Shown here: piece by piece, positions 5,347-15,666 of the stretch
How the letters are laid out: each line of letters opens with the position of its first letter
Numbering within the stretch: the first letter of the stretch is position 1
Assembly (NCBI GenBank): GCA_944324475.1
Contig: CALUWK010000012.1
Location: 1 to 43,178, forward strand
Source: Candidatus Gastranaerophilales bacterium
GTDB lineage: Bacteria > Cyanobacteriota > Vampirovibrionia > Gastranaerophilales > Gastranaerophilaceae
Direction: 5' to 3'
Length of the DNA stretch: 43,178 nt
Made by a program: the position numbers and the translations under genes
Notes under the pieces: model-generated
Database searches by the model: none
Told to the model about the DNA's origin: nothing
Seen by the model: only the letters and a program-made list of their open reading frames with translations

Positions 5347-8241
5347 TTATATGGTATCTTGAATTGCTATATCTATTAAATTGTTTCTATCAAAGCCAAA
5401 TTTATCGGTATATTCGAATAAAGCACCTTTTTTTCCTGATTGCGCCCAGCTAAAATCTTGTTTAAGGTCATTTTGCACCATTTTTTTGTAGCTGTTTGGT
5501 TTTTCATAGTACATTTTCAGAGCTTCAACCAGTTTCTCATAGAACGATTCTTCTGAAATTTCTGGTGCAATAAAGCCTGTAATTCCATCTTTTACTGTAT
5601 CTTTGAATCCACCAGTATTTGTAACTATTACAGGTGTACCTTTTGCAAAACATTCACCTTGAATTAAACCGCAGGGTTCATAGGTTGATGGAGCGCAGAA
5701 AAATGCACTTGCAGACATAATTGCGGGATTTGGCAGATTGCCTTTTAGGGCAATTACATGATCGACTCTTGCTTTATTGGTGCCATAATCAGGATTTTTT
5801 AAATCATCTAAGTGTTTTAGTTCTTCCGCACTTTCAGATGGACCACCAACCAAGAAATATGGCATAGGCTTATTCGGGAATTCTTTTTCCCAATTATCAA
5901 AAAGTCTAAATATTGCTCCTTTTAATATGCCAAGTCCTTTCTGGGATGTTAATCTGTGCGCAAAAGAAATTAATGGTGCTTCCATGAAATCTTGTTCAGA
6001 TATATTCATATTGCCTGCGTCAGGTCGGACTACTTCGGGTCCATTGCTATAATTTTTATCAATTAAAATAGGTTTAATGTAAGCATGGTAAAATCTGCGC
6101 TTGTTTTCTTTTCTAAGTTGCATAACGGTATTAATATCAGTGTTTTTATCATATTTTTCAAGCACTAAACCGTTAACAAAATTCTTGGTTGATACAGCAT
6201 TCATATCAACTTTATCTTTGTCAAGTCCGTTGACTATGCCTGAGATTGTTCCTGTATTTTTTCTTATATTTAATAATGGGTACAAGATACCAGATTTCAT
6301 TGGATCAATTATAATCTCATTTGCATAATTTTTAGATACTGGAACAAACCAATCTGATAACGCAACTCCATTAAATAAATGATTAAAATGTTTGTCGGCA
6401 GTGGATCTTTTCATCAGGACTGTATTACACATATCATCATTTTCGCCCATAATTCCACTGTGTGCGTTTTCAGTTATTGCTATTGCGTAGCTATCATATA
6501 GTGTATTGATTATATTTTCGGTAACTTTATTTTTGCTTAAGAGACTTCCTGAACCGTCGTTAGATTTTCCTTGGCATCCGAGATTATGCCCTATCATTAA
6601 TAATGGCATGTCTTTAAGTGCTGTATAGGTATTTTTTGGTATTTCTTTATAGTTGTATTCCATTGGAGCTCTGTAGCGTAATAAACCTGCCATTGAACCT
6701 GCATGCCAATCGTTTAGTATCATTGAATTAGGAGCTTTCAATTTATTAAATGCTTCTTCATCGCAAATTTCCATATCCGAAATGCCGCTCATGGCTTTTT
6801 CATTATTATTAAGTGCTAGATTGACTTTTAATTTTGCTAACTTATATACAGCCTTTGTAAACAGTGTAAATCTTTCCGTTTCTTCGGCATTGGTTGTAGA
6901 ATCATAAATATTTTCATTAAAATAATTTGAACTTTTTACGAAAATTAGTTGTTTTTTCTTGTCTTGAGACCCTTCAATATTCAATTCCGTCATGTAATAT
7001 TCAATTTGCTCTGGTTTGGTTATTCCGTTTCTATATACATGTGTAGTTGTTGAAGCAATTTTTGTTAAATTGAATTTTTGACCGTTATACTTATATTCAT
7101 ATTTGTTTCCTGGGAGTTTTCTAAATTCGGCTTGATTTTTCTTTAAATACATAGGAATAAATGTCGGTGCATCAATTCCAAGTTTTGTAAAGTTATTTTG
7201 TAAATCAACAGGAACTACGCCAAGTCCCCCTGTTTTTATTGGAGCATACTCTGCAGTGAGACACCAAAGCGATTCTAATTGTGGGAATCTTTCTTTATAT
7301 GCAATAATATCACTTACAGTGTCCTTTGCTGACCTTTTATTTCTTATAATTGCAGCATTTCTTATTGATTCAAGCGCCTCATCTGACCTAGTAAGATCTA
7401 TTTTTTTAGGATAATTTACTACTTGTAGTAAATTTAGATCATAATGTTTTACTGTATATGTCTCCATAATCGGATTTAATCCGCCTTCAGTTATTGCTAG
7501 TGCACGATTTGCTTTATCTGATGCTATATTAATTGAATCTTGCACTCTATGCATTCTTTCACTAGTGTCATTTGCTGTGTTTTCTGCGTTTGTTGCCCTT
7601 GATCTTGCTTCGCTTGCTGAATTTCTTGCATCTCTAGCCATAATTATAGCGTCTTGCGCTTTTGAATTTAGTTCGTTTAATTGTCCGTTTAAATTTTTTT
7701 GCGCATCTACAATTTCAGTTGCATCTTTTGTAGCATCGTTAATTTCTCTTTCTGAAAAACCGCTCTGTAATAATCTTTCACGATTATTTTTTATAAATTC
7801 ACTAATGCCAAAACCGGTGCCCATTCCTAAAAGAATTGTCGTAAGTCGAGCTTTTGGAGGTACCATTTTTTCTGTCGAAGGAGTTGCATTGCTTAAAGCA
7901 GTTTGAACAGCTTGTTCAATTTTTTCTGAAATATCATTTTGTACTTTATCGGCAATTTTTGTAGATGATTTTTTTGCTGCAATAATGGCTGTTGGAATTG
8001 TTATAATTGAAGTAATGATTGCTATAATGCCGCCATTTTCTTTTAAAAATGATTTAACTTTATTTCCGTTTGAAAAAGAATCTTCTTTTGTTTGCTGAGC
8101 TAAAATTGGATTTTCTTCTGAATTATTTTTATTTTGAGAGGTTGGATAAGTAGTGGCAGTGCTATCTTTTTTAATGTTTGCAAGTTTAAGATTCGAATTT
8201 AAGCTGTTCGATTTAAAACTTATCTTTTGTACTGATTGCAT
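5347..8241 (-). CDS. GT5 glycogen/starch synthase with membrane-anchor and coiled-coil extension
   Basis: The 964-residue protein is about twice the length of bacterial GlgA. The C-terminal part from about residue 323 is a GT5 synthase: SLWCLTAEYAPIKTGGLG (334-341 holds the KTGG loop that binds ADP-glucose), a central LNDWHAGSMAG stretch, SFAHRLTSQKGLG at the start of the second Rossmann domain, and the EPCGLIQGE (EX7E) catalytic signature before TPVIVTNTGGFKDTV. The usual D after KTGGLG is V here. Residues 1-60 are a polar leader with KISFKSN. Residues 71-90 and 132-150 are hydrophobic segments able to span a membrane, and about 155-250 is an Ala/Arg-rich helical coiled coil. The product would make alpha-1,4-glucan from a nucleotide glucose, probably at a membrane. 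GGGAGG lies 7 nt before the ATG. Confidence 0.88.
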   Translation of the reverse strand: MQSVQKISFKSNSLNSNLKLANIKKDSTATTYPTSQNKNNSEENPILAQQTKEDSFSNGNKVKSFLKENGGIIAIITSIITIPTAIIAAKKSSTKIADKVQNDISEKIEQAVQTALSNATPSTEKMVPPKARLTTILLGMGTGFGISEFIKNNRERLLQSGFSEREINDATKDATEIVDAQKNLNGQLNELNSKAQDAIIMARDARNSASEARSRATNAENTANDTSERMHRVQDSINIASDKANRALAITEGGLNPIMETYTVKHYDLNLLQVVNYPKKIDLTRSDEALESIRNAAIIRNKRSAKDTVSDIIAYKERFPQLESLWCLTAEYAPIKTGGLGVVPVDLQNNFTKLGIDAPTFIPMYLKKNQAEFRKLPGNKYEYKYNGQKFNLTKIASTTTHVYRNGITKPEQIEYYMTELNIEGSQDKKKQLIFVKSSNYFNENIYDSTTNAEETERFTLFTKAVYKLAKLKVNLALNNNEKAMSGISDMEICDEEAFNKLKAPNSMILNDWHAGSMAGLLRYRAPMEYNYKEIPKNTYTALKDMPLLMIGHNLGCQGKSNDGSGSLLSKNKVTENIINTLYDSYAIAITENAHSGIMGENDDMCNTVLMKRSTADKHFNHLFNGVALSDWFVPVSKNYANEIIIDPMKSGILYPLLNIRKNTGTISGIVNGLDKDKVDMNAVSTKNFVNGLVLEKYDKNTDINTVMQLRKENKRRFYHAYIKPILIDKNYSNGPEVVRPDAGNMNISEQDFMEAPLISFAHRLTSQKGLGILKGAIFRLFDNWEKEFPNKPMPYFLVGGPSESAEELKHLDDLKNPDYGTNKARVDHVIALKGNLPNPAIMSASAFFCAPSTYEPCGLIQGECFAKGTPVIVTNTGGFKDTVKDGITGFIAPEISEESFYEKLVEALKMYYEKPNSYKKMVQNDLKQDFSWAQSGKKGALFEYTDKFGFDRNNLIDIAIQDTI

Positions 8242-8462: not shown

Positions 8463-9920
8463 TTATCTAATATCACCATGAATTTTTACTTTTGATTTAT
8501 CAATTTGCATTGACCAATCTTTTCTGACATCTCCGAATATTTCTTTTATTTTTCCTAAATTTTTCAATTTGCTTTTTTTGAAGTTTACATTTCCAAAAAT
8601 CACGCTAAGTTCCCCTGTGTCAACAACTTCGCTTTCGGAGAAATCTGTGTCACCCATTATTTTTTTCAGATTTTTTAGTGTCTTTATTTTAGATTTTGAA
8701 AAACATGCGCCGCCTTCAATACTTTCAAGTTTTTCGCCTATGTCTTCGAGGTTTTCGCCTGTTAAATACGCATAACCCCCTATTCTTTCTATATCTTGCA
8801 AACTTTCTAAGGAGGATTTTGTAAAAATGGCATTTCCTGAAATTTCTGCAACATTTTCAATTAAAATGTTTTCATCAATTCCCAAATCTGAGAAAGATAT
8901 ATCCATAGAAGGCTGCCTGTATTCTGATAATATTTTTTTGCCGTCTGTTCTATATGTTGTAGTTATACCAAAATATTTAAGTATTTTTTCTGCGTCTTGA
9001 TTAATTATAAATTCGCAAATGTCTTTAATGATTTTTATTTTTTCATTTCTTATTCTTTTGGCATTTTGAACTCGATTAATATTGTCGTCAAGGTTATTTT
9101 CATTAATAAATTTTTCTATTTGTTCTATATATTTATCTGGAATTTTATTGTCATTTTTAGGGCCTTGTATCTCGTCAATTACACCATTCGTTGCTTTGAT
9201 GCAGATTCTTGGTTTATCATTTTCCATGAGTATATAAAAATCGCTATTTGCGATATAATCCTCTGTTTTTTCGCTTTTTGTGCACCATGTTGATACGCTC
9301 AGGCATTGTAGTTTTTTCATATTTTCATAAGCATTTTTTAAATCTTTTTTTGCAGACGGAATTTCAACCCAACCATTACTTGGAATTTCATAGTATTTTT
9401 TCATGTTTGAACTGTATACTTTGAAAAAGTCAAATTTTGCTTTCGGATTTTGTTTAAGCATGGCTTGTATTTCTAAAATTGTATTATTTAGTACATCTTG
9501 ATCACAAACAAATGGTATATTTTCATTCGTTGGTGTCAATCCTTTTACTAAAAAGGCAAAAATGATTAATTTTAGGGCGGGATTTTGTGTATATTCATCT
9601 TGATCTAAATGTCTTTTCCATGAATTTAGATATTTTTCTCTTGCAAGAGTTGTTCTTGTGTCTCTTGCGGGATATTCCTTTTGTGCCAATTCTTCATATT
9701 TTGCCTCTACCCAAGCATAAAAATCATTGATAGATTTAAATTTTTCAATAGGTATTTTAAAAATATTAACGCAAGCTAGATTAAATTCCTTGAATGCGCT
9801 TCTTTTCATAGCCCCAAATGAAACAGTGTCTGCCTGAATATTTTTTAAATTAGGCTTTTGAACTTGTTTTATTTTGGTATGATTTTGTTGATTAAAAAAA
9901 TTTATCGGTAACATCTTCAT
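8463..9920 (-). CDS. uncharacterised protein with C-terminal LRR-like repeats
   Basis: The 485-residue product has no function I can name. After a short leader containing DTVSFGAMKR there is a helical domain (about residues 30-190). Next comes a conserved-looking core with LSVSTWCTKSE, FYILMENDKPRICIK and IDEIQGPKND, a pattern I associate with uncharacterised proteins of gut bacteria and phages. The last 150 residues are 20-22-residue repeats of the form L..I..I.G...F..S.., as in SLESLQDIERIGG and SKLKNLGKIKEIFGD, which should form an LRR-like or beta-solenoid stack. No signal peptide or membrane span is evident. A TTG at 9956 would add 12 residues; ATG 9920 is preferred, though neither has a good ribosome binding site. 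Confidence 0.72.
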   Translation of the reverse strand: MKMLPINFFNQQNHTKIKQVQKPNLKNIQADTVSFGAMKRSAFKEFNLACVNIFKIPIEKFKSINDFYAWVEAKYEELAQKEYPARDTRTTLAREKYLNSWKRHLDQDEYTQNPALKLIIFAFLVKGLTPTNENIPFVCDQDVLNNTILEIQAMLKQNPKAKFDFFKVYSSNMKKYYEIPSNGWVEIPSAKKDLKNAYENMKKLQCLSVSTWCTKSEKTEDYIANSDFYILMENDKPRICIKATNGVIDEIQGPKNDNKIPDKYIEQIEKFINENNLDDNINRVQNAKRIRNEKIKIIKDICEFIINQDAEKILKYFGITTTYRTDGKKILSEYRQPSMDISFSDLGIDENILIENVAEISGNAIFTKSSLESLQDIERIGGYAYLTGENLEDIGEKLESIEGGACFSKSKIKTLKNLKKIMGDTDFSESEVVDTGELSVIFGNVNFKKSKLKNLGKIKEIFGDVRKDWSMQIDKSKVKIHGDIR

Positions 9921-9965
9921 ATTTTTATAAAACCTGAAAAAAAATAAATTTGCCAATATCTAAAT

Positions 9966-10050: not shown

Positions 10051-12120
10051 ATGTTACAAAACACAAAAAATGTTCTTTTGAACTGCTATAGAAAGCTTTT
10101 TGCCTTCTCTTTAATCGAACTTGGCATAAGTTTTATTACCATAGCTATTTTACTTGCAGCATTTTCTCCTGTAATATCAAAAAAACTTGCTTCTTCTGCT
10201 ACTTCTTCATCTGGAGGGTCTTCTGGTGGTGTAACATATAAATGTTCAACACTTTTTCCTGATTCAGACGGAGCTTGCATGCTATGCACAAAAAACCCTA
10301 AAAAATGTATCATGTGTTCAAAAACATGTCCTTCTGGTGAATATAAAAATGTATTTGAATGTAAATGTGAATCTTGTTCAACTAAACATTCTGATTCTCA
10401 TTGTGTAAATTGCGATGAAAATTCTTGCTTTGGATGTTCAGACGGGTATAGTCTTGATTCTAATAAAAAATGTATCATATGTCCTGCTGGAAGTTATTGT
10501 ATTGATGGCACAGTAAAAAAATGTCCGATAGGTACTTATTCAACAGGTGGAGCAACAGCTTGCGTACCTTGTTCTTCTGGCACAATGTCTCAAGAAGGAG
10601 CAACAAGTTGCTCATCTTGTTCGGATATATATGCAAATTGTTTATCTTGTGATTCATCTGGATGCAGCGCTTGTGAATCCGGGTATAAACTTGTAGACGG
10701 CAGGTGTCAATCAGATAGTCTTTGTCCTCCTAAGACATTGCAAATTGTTTTGAGCGATAAAATTTTATGTATTACACAATATAATATTGGTGATCAGCCA
10801 GAATTTCCTCTATCTTCTCCAGCAGTAACTGGACCACTTGATCATCCTGAAAATGGATGTTATTCATGCTGTTGGCAAGGCAAGACCGCATCTTCTTGTG
10901 ATTCTGCAAATGGGGGTTATAGTGGATGTAATAGGACGGTATGTACTCAAAGAGGAGCATTTAATGCATGTAAAAATTTAAACTATGCAGGTTTAACCTG
11001 GAGGTTACCATACGAAAGTGAACTTGATGCTATAGATGTGGCTAATTATTCTGTTAATAAGGGTGTAAATGGTTTGATGTTATGTAATTCAAAAGCTGAT
11101 TATGGTTCTGCATTGTGTAGTGATAATGAAACTTTTTGCAGGGCTAATGGTTCTTATAGATGTAGCCCAAGTGGGATATGGACAAATAGTTATCCTTCTG
11201 GTCTTGGTAATGATTATATCTACCGTGGTAGTTTAGCTGGTGGTAATTGGAATGTATCTTATACAAATGGAACTGGAAATGGCCTTTCTGTTCGTTGTGT
11301 AGCTTCAATAGATATGGGATCATGTGCAGACCGGTTTGGTCTGAATTGTACTGATTGTACTACTACCGGCTGTACAGGTTGTTCGGAAGGATATGCTCTT
11401 GTAGACAATCTATGTGTGCTAAAACCTGTTTGTAAAGATGTATTTGGTGAGAGCTGTGCTGAATGTTCTTATTTTAGTTGCACTTTATGTGAAGATGGTT
11501 ATAAATTTGTTGATGGTCAGTGCCTTGTACCAACATGTCCAGCGAACACTATTAAAATCACAGTTAGTGGCAAAGACCTCTGTGTAACTCAATATAACAT
11601 GGGAGATAAAACTGAATTTCCAGTTAACGCCTTTAGTGGTGTTACTGTAGTTCCAACAAATTCAAATTGCAGCGCATATGCTTGCTGCTGGCAGGGTCAG
11701 ACTGCATCTCCTTGCAATTCAGATAATGGTGGTTATAGCGGATGTAATAGAACTGTATGCACTCAATATGCTGCTGAAATTATATGTGACAACTTAAATT
11801 ATGGTGGTATGACCTGGAGACTACCTACTAAAGCTGAACTTGCTGGATTTGATCCAGATACATATTCAAAAAACTTAGGTACTAGTGGTCTTATGTTGTG
11901 TGACTACGATTCTGGTTACGGTTCAGCTCAATGCAACGGTTACAGTGTTTGCGTCGGCGACTCCAGTGATATCTGCAGACCGGACAAGGTATGGAGTAGT
12001 ACACTTTATTATAGTTGGAGTGGGAATGCTTACAACTACTACTTGGATTCGGGGTCATGGAGTGAGACTTTCAGCTATGGAAAGTACGCCTCTTCCGTTC
12101 GTTGTGTCAGTGAGTTATAA
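10051..12120 (+). CDS. pilin-like, cysteine-rich surface protein with C-terminal hypervariable lectin-like module (protein 1)
   Basis: This 689-residue protein opens with a type IV prepilin signal: basic leader, cleavage after Ala18, Phe19 as +1, Glu23 as +5, and a hydrophobic helix to residue 40 (FSLIELGISF...). Residues about 65-225 are rich in CxxC pairs, furin/GCC2-GCC3-like. Two lectin-like modules follow (about 226-420 and 505-689). Each contains C(I/V)TQYN.GD, CCWQG.TA, GGYSGCNRT, WRLP..(S/A)EL and ends SVRCV, which fits the FISUMP/DUF1566 type of C-type-lectin-like fold. Residues 618-687 of module 2 form a variable region (see that feature); module 1 has diverged at the DNA level. It would be exported by the type IV pilus or pseudopilin route and shown at the surface. 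It has its own promoter and terminator. Ligand unknown. Confidence 0.87.
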   Translation: MLQNTKNVLLNCYRKLFAFSLIELGISFITIAILLAAFSPVISKKLASSATSSSGGSSGGVTYKCSTLFPDSDGACMLCTKNPKKCIMCSKTCPSGEYKNVFECKCESCSTKHSDSHCVNCDENSCFGCSDGYSLDSNKKCIICPAGSYCIDGTVKKCPIGTYSTGGATACVPCSSGTMSQEGATSCSSCSDIYANCLSCDSSGCSACESGYKLVDGRCQSDSLCPPKTLQIVLSDKILCITQYNIGDQPEFPLSSPAVTGPLDHPENGCYSCCWQGKTASSCDSANGGYSGCNRTVCTQRGAFNACKNLNYAGLTWRLPYESELDAIDVANYSVNKGVNGLMLCNSKADYGSALCSDNETFCRANGSYRCSPSGIWTNSYPSGLGNDYIYRGSLAGGNWNVSYTNGTGNGLSVRCVASIDMGSCADRFGLNCTDCTTTGCTGCSEGYALVDNLCVLKPVCKDVFGESCAECSYFSCTLCEDGYKFVDGQCLVPTCPANTIKITVSGKDLCVTQYNMGDKTEFPVNAFSGVTVVPTNSNCSAYACCWQGQTASPCNSDNGGYSGCNRTVCTQYAAEIICDNLNYGGMTWRLPTKAELAGFDPDTYSKNLGTSGLMLCDYDSGYGSAQCNGYSVCVGDSSDICRPDKVWSSTLYYSWSGNAYNYYLDSGSWSETFSYGKYASSVRCVSEL
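11902..12111 (+). other. DGR-type variable region, protein 1 module 2
   Basis: This 210-bp segment aligns with the three variable regions of protein 2, with two extra codons. Anchors such as GTATGGAGTAGT and TCGGGGTCATGG are identical in all four, while first and second positions of intervening codons differ. It ends CGTTGTGTCAGT just before the stop codon. The mutagenesis origin is inferred; no template repeat is in the window. Confidence 0.75.
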
Positions 12121-12252
12121 CAATGAAGTGTCAATACTTTAGTCATTTTACAATTTAATACTTTTTATAAAAATGTAGGAAGTAAAAATAGAAAGGAGAA
12201 AAACAAAAAGAAAAAAAATCTAATTCCAAATATTAATAAATCATTCGTTTAT
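12100..12252 (+). repeat. 3'-flank repeat, copy 1
   Basis: A 153-bp sequence starting in the last codons of protein 1 and running through its 3' untranslated region. It is identical to 15515-15666 except for one extra A in an A-tract. It includes a palindromic GTTATAAC around the stop codon and a TTTTTATAAAAA palindrome. Confidence 0.97.
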
Positions 12253-12256
12253 TATT

Positions 12257-12280
12257 GGAGTATTCATACTCCATTTTTTT
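12257..12280 (+). terminator. intrinsic terminator of protein 1 gene
   Basis: GGAGTA-TTCA-TACTCC hairpin followed by ATTTTTTTA, directly after the 3'-flank repeat. Confidence 0.85.
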
Positions 12281-12286
12281 ATTATC

Positions 12287-12315
12287 TTGACTTTGGTTGA
12301 TAATTTATGTAGACT
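12287..12315 (+). promoter_or_regulatory. promoter for the second pilin-like variable protein
   Basis: TTGACT (12287-12292), 17-bp spacer, TAGACT (12310-12315), immediately after the terminator of protein 1. If it is used, translation cannot begin at the upstream in-frame TTG (12287), which lies in the -35 box. Confidence 0.5.
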
Positions 12316-12388
12316 GTTTAGTAGATTATTTAATCAAAACACTTTAAATTTGTGCGCAATTTTGGTATTGTGCGCAGTGGAGATATCT

Positions 12389-15300
12389 TTGAAAAATACT
12401 TGTGGACTTTTAAAGAAAGCTGGCTGTTTTAGCGGATATTCGCTTGTTGAATTGTGCGTGGGATTTATAGTGATGTCTGTATTGCTTGCTGCTTTAAGTC
12501 CTGTGATTTCAAAAAGAATCGTATCGTCTGTGGTTGGTGGTGAAAAGGAATTATCTATTTCTTGTGATGAGCTTTTTCCTGAGGCAGAAGGTCACTGTGC
12601 AATATGTTATAAAAGCCCCAAGGAGTGCTTATTTTGCTCAAGAATTTGTGCTAGCGGTTACCTTAAAGACACTGGAGAGTGCGTTTGCAAAACTTGCAAA
12701 AGCGTCTATCATGATGAACATTGTTCAAGATGTGATGAAAATAGTTGTCTTGCTTGTGATGATGGGTATTATTTAGATGATAAAAACAAGTGTATTCCTT
12801 GTCCTGCGGGCTCATATTGTCATCAAGTTTTGGGTAATTCGGTAATTAAGCAATGTCAAAAGGGATACGCTGCTCCAAATGAAGGAATGAGCGCATGTTT
12901 ACCTTGTGAAAAATCATCAAATACAACTGCAGGCTCTGTTGCGGTTAATGAAGGCTCTGAAGCTTGTGTAACTTGTTTAGATGGCAATTATGCTTCAAGT
13001 TCGGCACAAAGTACAGCTTGTGAGTCTTGCCCTAAGGGATATTATTGTCCTGGCGGATTGCTCATCCCTTGTGCTAAGGGTTATTCAAATAACTCAGAGG
13101 GTCAAACTTCCTGTGTTGCTTGTAAGAAATCTGATGAAACCACTACGGGTACTGTTGCAGTCAGTGAGTCTAGTCAAACCTGCAGCAAATGTATAGATGG
13201 CACTTATGCTGCTTCTGATGCACAAGGTATTGCCTGCGGAAGTTGTCCTGCTGGATATTATTGTCCTGATGGTAAAATTATAAAATGTCCGGCCGGAAAG
13301 TATTCAACTGGCGGGGCAAAAGAGTGTACTTTATGTCCTGCAGGTAGCTATTCTGCTGCTGGAGCTTCAAGCTGCAGTACATGTGCTGCAGGTAGCTATT
13401 CTGCTGCTGGGGCTTCAAGTTGCAGTGCATGCGCTAGCGGTACTACATCTGCAAGTGGAGCTGCGTCGTGTTCTGCCTGTTCTAGTTTTTTCTCTAATTG
13501 CACTAGTTGTACTGCTACTGCTTGTACTGCCTGCAAATCAGGGTATAAGCTTGTTAATGGAAGATGTGAAATAGATAATCCATGTCCTGCGAACACTATT
13601 TATGTTAATGCAGATGGCAAAGACCTCTGTGTAACTCAATATAACATGGGTGATAAAACTGAATTTCCAGTAAATGTCTCAGGTGTCTCTGTAGTTTCAA
13701 CTCGTACAGATTGCAGCGCAAATGCCTGCTGCTGGCAGGGTCAGACTGCAGCTTGCGATTCAATTAATGGCGGCTATAGTGGATGTAATAGAACTGTATG
13801 CACACATTACGCTGCTGAAATTATATGTAATAGTTTAAATTACTATGGTTTAAGCTGGAGATTACCTACTAAAGATGAACTTGCAGGATTTAGCCCAACT
13901 ACATATTCAATAAATATAGGAACAAGTGGCCTTATGTTGTGTGACTACCTTTCTGGTTACGGTTCTGTTCAGTGCCTTACTTACCTTGGTTGCAATGGTT
14001 CCTACAATGGTGGCTGCTTCCCGTACATCGTATGGAGTAGTACACTTTATAGTAGCTCTGGCGCTTACCGCTACGAATTGAATTCGGGGTCATGGAGTCA
14101 GTATTACAACGATAGGCGATTCCCTTTTTCCGTACGTTGTGTCAGTCCCATAGGTGAAAAAACCTGCAAAGACACCTTTGGCAACGGTTGCGTTGAATGT
14201 TCATCATCTGCATGCACACGTTGTATGGATGGATACACCTTAAAAAATGGCAAATGTGTCGTGGCGCCAACATGTCCTGCGAACACTATTTATGTTAATG
14301 CTAATGGCAAAGACCTTTGTGTTACCCAATATAACATGGGAGATAAAACCGAATTTCCAGTCAATGTCTCAGGTGTCACTGTAGTTTCAACTAATACAGA
14401 ATGCAGCGCAAATGCCTGCTGCTGGCAGGGTAAAACAGCTGAATCTTGCAATTCAGAAAATGGTGGTTACAGCGGATGTAATAGAACTCAATGCACACAT
14501 TACGCAGCAGAAATTATATGTAACAATTTAAATTATGGTGGTATGAGCTGGAGATTACCTACTAGAGATGAACTTAGTGGTTTTTATCCAACATATTCAA
14601 AAGATAAAGGTGCTAGTGGTCTTATGTTGTGTAACTACAATTCTGGTTACGGTTCTCCTCAATGCGGCAAGTACAATGTTTGCGACGGCTCCTTCAATGG
14701 TAACTGCTACCCGAGCTACGTATGGAGTAGTGCACTTTCTAGTAGCTCTTACGCTTACTACTACCGCTTGGATTCGGGGTCATGGCTTTGGAGTAGCTGC
14801 AATAGACGGCGCGTCCTTTCCGTACGTTGTGTCAGTCCCTTAGGTGAAAATACCTGCAAAGACACCTTTGGCAACGGTTGCGTTGAATGTTCATCATCTG
14901 CATGCACTCGTTGTATGGATGGATACACCTTAAAAAATGGCAAATGTGTCGTGGTGCCAACATGTCCAGCAAACACTGTTAAAATCACAGTTAGTGGCAA
15001 AGACCTTTGTGTAACTCAATATAACATGGGGGATAAACCAGAGTTTCCCGTTAACGTCTCTGGTGTTAAAGTAGTTTCAACTAATTCATATTGCAGCGCT
15101 AATGCCTGCTGCTGGCAGGGTAAGACTGCTGATCCTTGCGATTCAGATAATGGCGGTTACAGCGGATGTAATAGAACTCAATGCACACAATACGCTGCTG
15201 AAATTATATGTAACAACCTAAATTATGGTGGTATGAGCTGGAGATTACCTACTAAAGATGAACTTAAAGGTTTTTATCCAACATATTCAAAAAATGTAGG

Positions 15301-15535
15301 AACAAGTGGCCTTATGTTGTGTGACCACAGTTCTGGTTACGGTTCAGCTCAATGCAGCAATTACGATGTTTGCTACGGCTCCCGCGATGGTTACTGCCGC
15401 CCGTACTATGTATGGAGTAGTACACTCGATGGTAGTTCTAGTGCTATTGAGTACAGCTTGGGTTCGGGGTCATGGTACTCGGATTCCTATATTAGGCGTG
15501 TTGCAGATTCCGTACGTTGTGTCAGTGAGTTATAA
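12389..15535 (+). CDS. pilin-like, cysteine-rich surface protein with three hypervariable lectin-like modules (protein 2)
   Basis: This 1048-residue paralogue of protein 1 has a prepilin signal with cleavage after Gly16, Tyr17 as +1, Glu21 as +5 and a hydrophobic helix to about residue 37. I chose TTG 12389 because GGAG (12379-12382) is 6 nt upstream and it gives a normal short prepilin leader; the longer frame from 12287 overlaps a promoter. Residues about 50-395 hold many CxxC pairs and GCC2/GCC3-like repeats (CPAGSYSAAGASSCS). Three 230-residue units follow, each with a Cys-rich linker (CxxCSSSACTRC.DGY) and a lectin-like module (CVTQYNMGDK, CCWQGKTA, WRLPT.DEL, SVRCVS). The variable stretches are residues 519-586, 749-816 and 979-1046. 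It would be a surface adhesin or receptor displayed by a pilus-like system; ligand unknown. Confidence 0.87.
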   Translation: MKNTCGLLKKAGCFSGYSLVELCVGFIVMSVLLAALSPVISKRIVSSVVGGEKELSISCDELFPEAEGHCAICYKSPKECLFCSRICASGYLKDTGECVCKTCKSVYHDEHCSRCDENSCLACDDGYYLDDKNKCIPCPAGSYCHQVLGNSVIKQCQKGYAAPNEGMSACLPCEKSSNTTAGSVAVNEGSEACVTCLDGNYASSSAQSTACESCPKGYYCPGGLLIPCAKGYSNNSEGQTSCVACKKSDETTTGTVAVSESSQTCSKCIDGTYAASDAQGIACGSCPAGYYCPDGKIIKCPAGKYSTGGAKECTLCPAGSYSAAGASSCSTCAAGSYSAAGASSCSACASGTTSASGAASCSACSSFFSNCTSCTATACTACKSGYKLVNGRCEIDNPCPANTIYVNADGKDLCVTQYNMGDKTEFPVNVSGVSVVSTRTDCSANACCWQGQTAACDSINGGYSGCNRTVCTHYAAEIICNSLNYYGLSWRLPTKDELAGFSPTTYSINIGTSGLMLCDYLSGYGSVQCLTYLGCNGSYNGGCFPYIVWSSTLYSSSGAYRYELNSGSWSQYYNDRRFPFSVRCVSPIGEKTCKDTFGNGCVECSSSACTRCMDGYTLKNGKCVVAPTCPANTIYVNANGKDLCVTQYNMGDKTEFPVNVSGVTVVSTNTECSANACCWQGKTAESCNSENGGYSGCNRTQCTHYAAEIICNNLNYGGMSWRLPTRDELSGFYPTYSKDKGASGLMLCNYNSGYGSPQCGKYNVCDGSFNGNCYPSYVWSSALSSSSYAYYYRLDSGSWLWSSCNRRRVLSVRCVSPLGENTCKDTFGNGCVECSSSACTRCMDGYTLKNGKCVVVPTCPANTVKITVSGKDLCVTQYNMGDKPEFPVNVSGVKVVSTNSYCSANACCWQGKTADPCDSDNGGYSGCNRTQCTQYAAEIICNNLNYGGMSWRLPTKDELKGFYPTYSKNVGTSGLMLCDHSSGYGSAQCSNYDVCYGSRDGYCRPYYVWSSTLDGSSSAIEYSLGSGSWYSDSYIRRVADSVRCVSEL
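13334..13477 (+). repeat. 48-bp tandem repeat (three units) in protein 2
   Basis: Three consecutive 48-bp units at 13334, 13382 and 13430, each coding 16 residues of the form C(P/A)AGSYSAAGASSCS(T/A). Units 1 and 2 are nearly identical and unit 3 is diverged. This is a GCC2/GCC3-like stalk that can change in length by slippage. Confidence 0.85.
13943..14146 (+). other. DGR-type variable region, protein 2 module 1
   Basis: A 68-codon segment aligned without gaps to the other two in this gene. Variable codons include CTT, AAT, TAC, GGC and TTC where other copies have AAT, GAC/TAC, TTC/CGC, AAC/TAC and TAC/CGC. The third base is mostly kept. It ends TCCGTACGTTGTGTCAGT, as in modules 2 and 3. 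Confidence 0.7.
14633..14836 (+). other. DGR-type variable region, protein 2 module 2
   Basis: Same 68-codon layout and identical anchors as module 1, with different residues at the variable sites. The downstream linker (after GTCAGT) is the repeat-unit linker and not the 3' flank. Confidence 0.7.
15323..15526 (+). other. DGR-type variable region, protein 2 module 3
   Basis: Terminal copy, next to the stop codon and the conserved 3' flank, the usual position of a DGR target. It shares TCAGCTCAATGC with protein 1 just inside its 5' edge. Higher G/C content than the surrounding gene fits replacement of template A by other bases. Confidence 0.75.
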
Positions 15536-15666
15536 CAATGAAGTGTCAATACTTTAGTCATTTTACAATTTAATACTTTTTATAAAAATGTAGGAAGTAA
15601 AAATAGAAAGGAGAAAAACAAAAAGAAAAAAATCTAATTCCAAATATTAATAAATCATTCGTTTAT
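15515..15666 (+). repeat. 3'-flank repeat, copy 2
   Basis: A 152-bp copy of 12100-12252 with a single-base deletion in an A-tract. It covers the last codons, the stop and the 3' untranslated region of protein 2. The terminators that follow the two copies are different in sequence. Confidence 0.97.

Follow-up and report, generated by a model that had tools for sequence, protein, structure and literature searches.

Hypervariable ends of Lcl_C domains in pilin-like proteins of a Gastranaerophilales bacterium as probable targets of a diversity-generating retroelement

DUF1566 is the commonest recognisable target domain of diversity-generating retroelements (DGRs) in human microbiomes, where it was found in 47 proteins (PMC4159848). 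Its targets bear a C-terminal variable region, and the same study accepts that a target may be located on a contig that carries no reverse transcriptase (RT) gene. DGRs in which one template serves many variable repeats (VRs), again with DUF1566 targets, have likewise been described, several VRs being present in one target ORF in 11.3% of these multi-VR DGRs (PMC6642488). For annotated VR regions C-type-lectin folds have been reported (Roux et al., PMC8144416). Here we analyse a stretch of 43,178 nucleotides from a Candidatus Gastranaerophilales bacterium (“the window”) which encodes two putative DGR targets. Since DUF1566 targets, many VRs per template and several VRs per ORF are already known, the system falls within the known kind of DGR. 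It differs from the elements of PMC4159848 in its occurrence in a Gastranaerophilales genus, in the pilin-like, multi-domain nature of its targets and in that neither RT nor template was found in the window's draft assembly, and from those of PMC6642488 in comprising 28 related domain copies with internal as well as terminal VRs, with the machinery again not found in that assembly. Also close are the DGRs of two sister species, G007 and G009 (L081, L082, L155-L167), which share the same 68-codon Lcl_C segment, an N-rich template, several VRs and in places two VRs per protein (L155, L162) but differ from the window's genome in that RT, Avd and template adjoin one of the targets. The C-terminal domain of the Legionella adhesin Lcl (PDB 8q4e) also belongs to PF07603, the relation resting on the Pfam match; Lcl, in contrast to the proteins described here, is a single adhesin.

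Both target proteins of the window are encoded on the forward strand. Protein 1 (10051..12120, +) and protein 2 (12287..15535, +, start codon uncertain) consist of a pilin-like N-terminus followed by Cys-rich repeats and by two and three Lcl_C domains, respectively. The N-terminus of protein 1 recurs in near-identical form in a gene at the end of contig C1. A prepilin-type motif, F-S-L-I-E-L, was found by eye in the pilin-like proteins; the N_methyl profile (PF07963) matches protein 2 below the cut-off (E = 0.008) and protein 1 not at all. The four hypervariable segments which the sequence-only reading had aligned codon by codon are present in frame at the coordinates given there; four of the five Lcl_C domains end in such a segment of 68-70 codons: A2 (11899..12108, +, 70 codons) is C-terminal in protein 1, B1 (13940..14143, +) and B2 (14630..14833, +) are internal to protein 2, and B3 (15320..15523, +) forms its C-terminal end, the latter three comprising 68 codons each. 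The first Lcl_C domain of protein 1 (10723..11304, +) is an old, divergent copy. All 17 domains tested match Lcl_C (PF07603, DUF1566) in Pfam. The anchor TCGGGGTCATGG occurs four times in the window, a number reached in none of 100 shuffles; GTATGGAGTAGT, searched with two mismatches allowed, also occurs four times but is the weaker of the two (5/100 shuffles). Downstream of each stop codon a conserved 3' flank is found (12112..12229, + and 15527..15643, +). Neither avd nor RT nor template is present 3' of protein 2, where the next gene encodes a nucleotidyltransferase on the opposite strand. No solved relative of the domain was found by sequence search. One domain was modelled with low confidence (pLDDT 54), its top Foldseek match, 8q4e, being insignificant (E 0.21), and predicted structure was dropped as evidence as the model is too weak.

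Two further genes of the window lie upstream on the reverse strand. A 964-residue protein (5347-8241, -) combines a starch-synthase/GT1 part (Glyco_transf_5, Glycos_transf_1) with about 320 additional residues at its N-terminus. The 497-residue protein adjoining the targets (8463-9956, -) has no Pfam match; its relatives, mostly 30-40% identical, occur in 17 other genomes of the genus, some of them broken by stop codons.

The distribution of changes over the codon bases distinguishes the segments from the sequence immediately preceding them. Comparing the three copies in protein 2, we obtained exactly the count given by the sequence-only reading, namely 30, 26 and 19 variable columns at first, second and third bases, and in the 115 codons just upstream of the same three copies the order is reversed (22, 14 and 41; Fisher p = 0.0005), as it should be if ordinary divergence favours third bases. 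When all four window copies are pooled, the differences per codon at bases 1, 2 and 3 amount to 0.14, 0.09 and 0.24 upstream and to 0.33, 0.30 and 0.18 within the segment. Divergence at fourfold sites drops from 0.34 upstream to 0.14 inside the VRs of the window copies; replacement change thus goes up where silent change goes down. A further argument of the earlier reading, that most variable first- and second-base sites have an A in at least one of the four copies, holds as a count (we find 46 of 56, where 45 had been given) but not as evidence, because upstream 31 of 36 such sites show an A in one copy too; we therefore discarded it. Third bases inside the VRs are not invariant either, as they differ in 19 columns among B1-B3, and these three are therefore not fresh copies of one template.

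The four segments turned out to be a small part of a far larger set. Using the anchors and a DNA search we located 28 Lcl_C domain copies in about ten genes of the window's genome, distributed over eight contigs (C1, C12, C14, C27, C32, C33, C40 and C52). A 3' flank of about 115 bases following the stop codon is 98-99% identical after six of these target genes. Departures of third bases from the consensus are numerous in some copies (10 in B1, 12 in B3, 20 and 28 in two copies on C1), whereas B2, with five, and five copies elsewhere, altogether six of the eleven gapless ones, show 2-5, comparable with 0-6 in the VRs of the RT-bearing species G007 and G009. In these six “fresh” copies the AAN codons differ by 0.59 at bases 1-2 vs 0.03 at base 3, figures of which only the contrast of bases 1-2 with non-A sites counts since the subset was picked for low third-base change. 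The copies at C1:83677 and C27:15947 are identical in 351 of 354 upstream bases (99%) and differ in 54 of 216 VR bases (25%). Conversely, the copy at C27 (15947-16519) has VR blocks in common with B3 although the upstream parts differ, which points to exchange between loci, that is, gene conversion, as well.

The upstream side is visible at nine target loci, and at eight of them it holds a small, divergently transcribed gene for an XRE-type helix-turn-helix protein (L076:3099-3455, L070:2683-3024, L073:2360-2722, L077:2701-3030, L168:496-879, L169:1515-1940, L170:1846-2184 and L171:1925-2296), the gene pair of the window being the exception. The four of these genes that were scanned match HTH_3/HTH_19. 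Such a regulator could control which adhesin is made.

Some RT is encoded in 12 of the 28 genomes of the genus Candidatus Gastranaerophilales. In seven of them the RT carries the motif G-L-(P/A)-IGNLTSQFFSN (alignment A1) and is adjoined by an Avd-like gene (alignment A2), the two profiles finding exactly the same seven genomes; the other RTs of the genus, which have neither an (L/I)GNLTSQ motif nor an Avd neighbour, were set aside. The closest solved protein of the RT is 8ub7_A, titled “Reverse transcriptase” (E 3.8e-45), which we take to be the DGR enzyme of a Bordetella phage. The Avd-like protein matches NF033474 (“diversity-generating retroelement protein Avd”, E 7e-11) as well as bAvd (PF22296). 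Repeats beside these RTs differ from the coding copy mainly at their own adenines, namely in 19 of 20 differences in L078 and in 24 of 26 in L080 (T as printed, the repeat being on the other strand). The templates of L080, L081 and L082, which originate from three species, encode 68 residues and align without gaps to the window segments; that of L080 reads CDNNSG..NNVWSG..NRGSWNQNSNSRTNAFSVRCV, and the other two are alike. In L080 and L081 the 3' ends of VR and template differ as ACGAATTT/ACGGATTT. Nine VRs of G007, located in L155, L156, L157, L158, L159, L160 and L162, show 2-11 differences from their template among 147 non-A positions vs 19-26 among 55-57 A positions, and seven VRs of G009 show 4-11 among 149 non-A vs 16-30 among 55 A positions. 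The systems of G007 and G009 are multi-target DGRs, and the two species show about 7-9 recently mutated targets each. Wherever a sister genome has an Lcl_C template, the cassette adjoins a target gene; its neighbours in G009 are unlike those in G017 and G007.

A few peculiarities of the sister loci deserve mention in their own right. At the template position beside the RT of G022, a genome with at least 37 Lcl_C matches, the repeat L079:6818-7030 has TAC where the VR of the neighbouring target has AAC or CAC, so that mismatches fall off adenines; here a variant copy may have been written over the template. G009 harbours two tandem template-like repeats (L082:5825-6205 and 6262-6639) which share a leader some 170 bases long; of the two, the first alone resembles the neighbouring VR. 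In G002 (L078:4017-5672) a VR is situated inside a pilin-like target which was missed by the Lcl_C profile and whose open frame runs about 180 residues beyond the VR, unlike the usual C-terminal arrangement.

The sister templates predict where the copies of the window's genome vary. With A sites defined by adenine in at least two of the three sister templates, none of which stems from the window's strain, twelve gapless copies have a first- and second-base diversity of 0.524 at A sites vs 0.135 at all others, a difference reached in none of 100,000 permutations. Omission of the divergent copy on C14 leaves a difference of 0.403, and sliding the template by 1-67 codons yields at best 0.09, compared to about 0.40 in register. 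At the 20 AAN codons diversity is 0.68, 0.53 and 0.20 by base, compared to 0.13, 0.14 and 0.23 at the other codons, and at the third base the AAN codons mostly keep the sister template's C or T. Likewise, among B1-B3 first bases vary at 19 and second bases at 18 of the 20 AAN codons, compared to 11 and 8 of the 48 non-AAN codons. Codon 60, which encodes Arg in most copies, occurs in all four CGN forms (G7 A4 T4 C4), a silent variety that is therefore not expected from selection on the protein. A point against the DGR reading is that the silent adenines at codons 31, 51 and 65 remain A in 8-9 of 10-11 copies. Taken together, sister templates with adenines at the codons which vary in the window and sister species with RT, Avd and targets in several genes support the adenine-directed DGR signature put forward by the sequence-only reading. 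We conclude that the four window segments are very probably DGR variable repeats. Assignment of the two genes as DGR targets is supported; as to a complete DGR, neither RT nor template was found in the draft assembly, nor was Avd, an accessory protein that is common in DGRs though not universal.

The A-rich template and the DGR reverse transcriptase which the earlier reading had asked for were sought in the window's own genome, a draft of 64 contigs (97.4% complete) rather than a closed sequence, and were not found there. Searches of this assembly with RVT_1 and with the A1 profile for an RT and with the A2 profile for Avd were empty, both profiles each finding seven of 28 genus genomes as positive control. 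Starting from the VRs, the search of this genome for a template returned coding copies only; the candidate C40:1-117 proved to be the tail of a coding copy and was rejected. No cassette is present in the 3' flanks of the ten target genes, all of which are visible either directly or via C57 and C9, two contigs whose beginnings lie in the shared 3' flank at which C32 and C52 break off. Several contigs end within repeated target genes, and the missing 5' ends of target genes lie on C26, C48 and the end of C1; which end joins which at these broken repeats is an assignment we infer. A search of viral contigs yielded neither the VR end nor any close relative of the domain.

Could the pattern have arisen with no DGR at all, from duplicates of a lectin-like domain in which diversifying selection acts on the ligand-contact residues and gene conversion homogenises the remainder? 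In such a fold ligand-contact sites and template adenines would coincide, gene conversion is indeed visible, and the machinery was not found in the window's genome. We nevertheless regard this explanation as very improbable: within the AAN codons the first two bases are far more variable than the third, whose C or T agrees with the sister template, codon 60 is silent yet explores every CGN form, and the working parts for the very same segment are present in sister species.

If the segments are DGR repeats, the fact that RT, Avd and template were not found in the assembly leads to either of two histories. That the organism possesses a cassette which is missing from the draft, be it on an unbinned short contig, a mobile element or a plasmid, has in our view about an even chance. 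The draft state of the assembly with several contigs breaking in repeated target genes, the low third-base departure of six of eleven gapless copies, as in RT-bearing sisters, and the varying location of the cassette (different neighbours in G009 vs G017 and G007) speak for it; the cassettes of sister species, however, adjoin a target gene while all ten 3' flanks here are visible and devoid of one, and the VR-based genome search gave coding copies only. Recent loss of the DGR, leaving the VRs as remnants subject to drift and to shuffling by gene conversion, we judge a little short of an even bet. It accords with searches that were empty here and positive in sister genomes, with the third-base divergence of several copies, with the blocks common to B3 and a C27 copy, and with the patchy occurrence of the RT (7/28 in the genus), other Lcl_C-rich genomes of which also have no DGR RT. 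Against it stand the six copies that appear no older than the VRs of RT-bearing species. It seems rather unlikely to us, though worth stating, that about 28 former targets, kept after RT loss, now serve as a ready-made repertoire of surface binders that is switched and reshuffled by gene conversion among them, with an XRE-type regulator next to most of the genes.

According to the DGR interpretation which we favour, RT-Avd machinery of the sister type would, in the window's lineage, have copied an A-rich template RNA to cDNA with errors at adenines, and the mutated cDNA would have overwritten the Lcl_C domain ends of about ten surface proteins. Provided that Lcl_C adopts a C-type-lectin-like fold, the varied residues would alter binding, and the pilin-like N-termini would presumably serve to display the domain outside the cell. 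Blocks are also reshuffled by gene conversion between copies, and the system may have been lost recently from the window's genome or may sit in unassembled or unbinned DNA.

No earlier report of such hypermutation in Gastranaerophilales was found in the literature searched, from whose scope preprints and most subscription journals were excluded. The present analysis would place targeted hypermutation of large families of pilin-like adhesins in a gut Gastranaerophilales genus. As some species of this genus have the enzyme and others do not, with the same targets in both, it may offer a natural setting in which to follow the effects of DGR gain and loss on hypervariable proteins.
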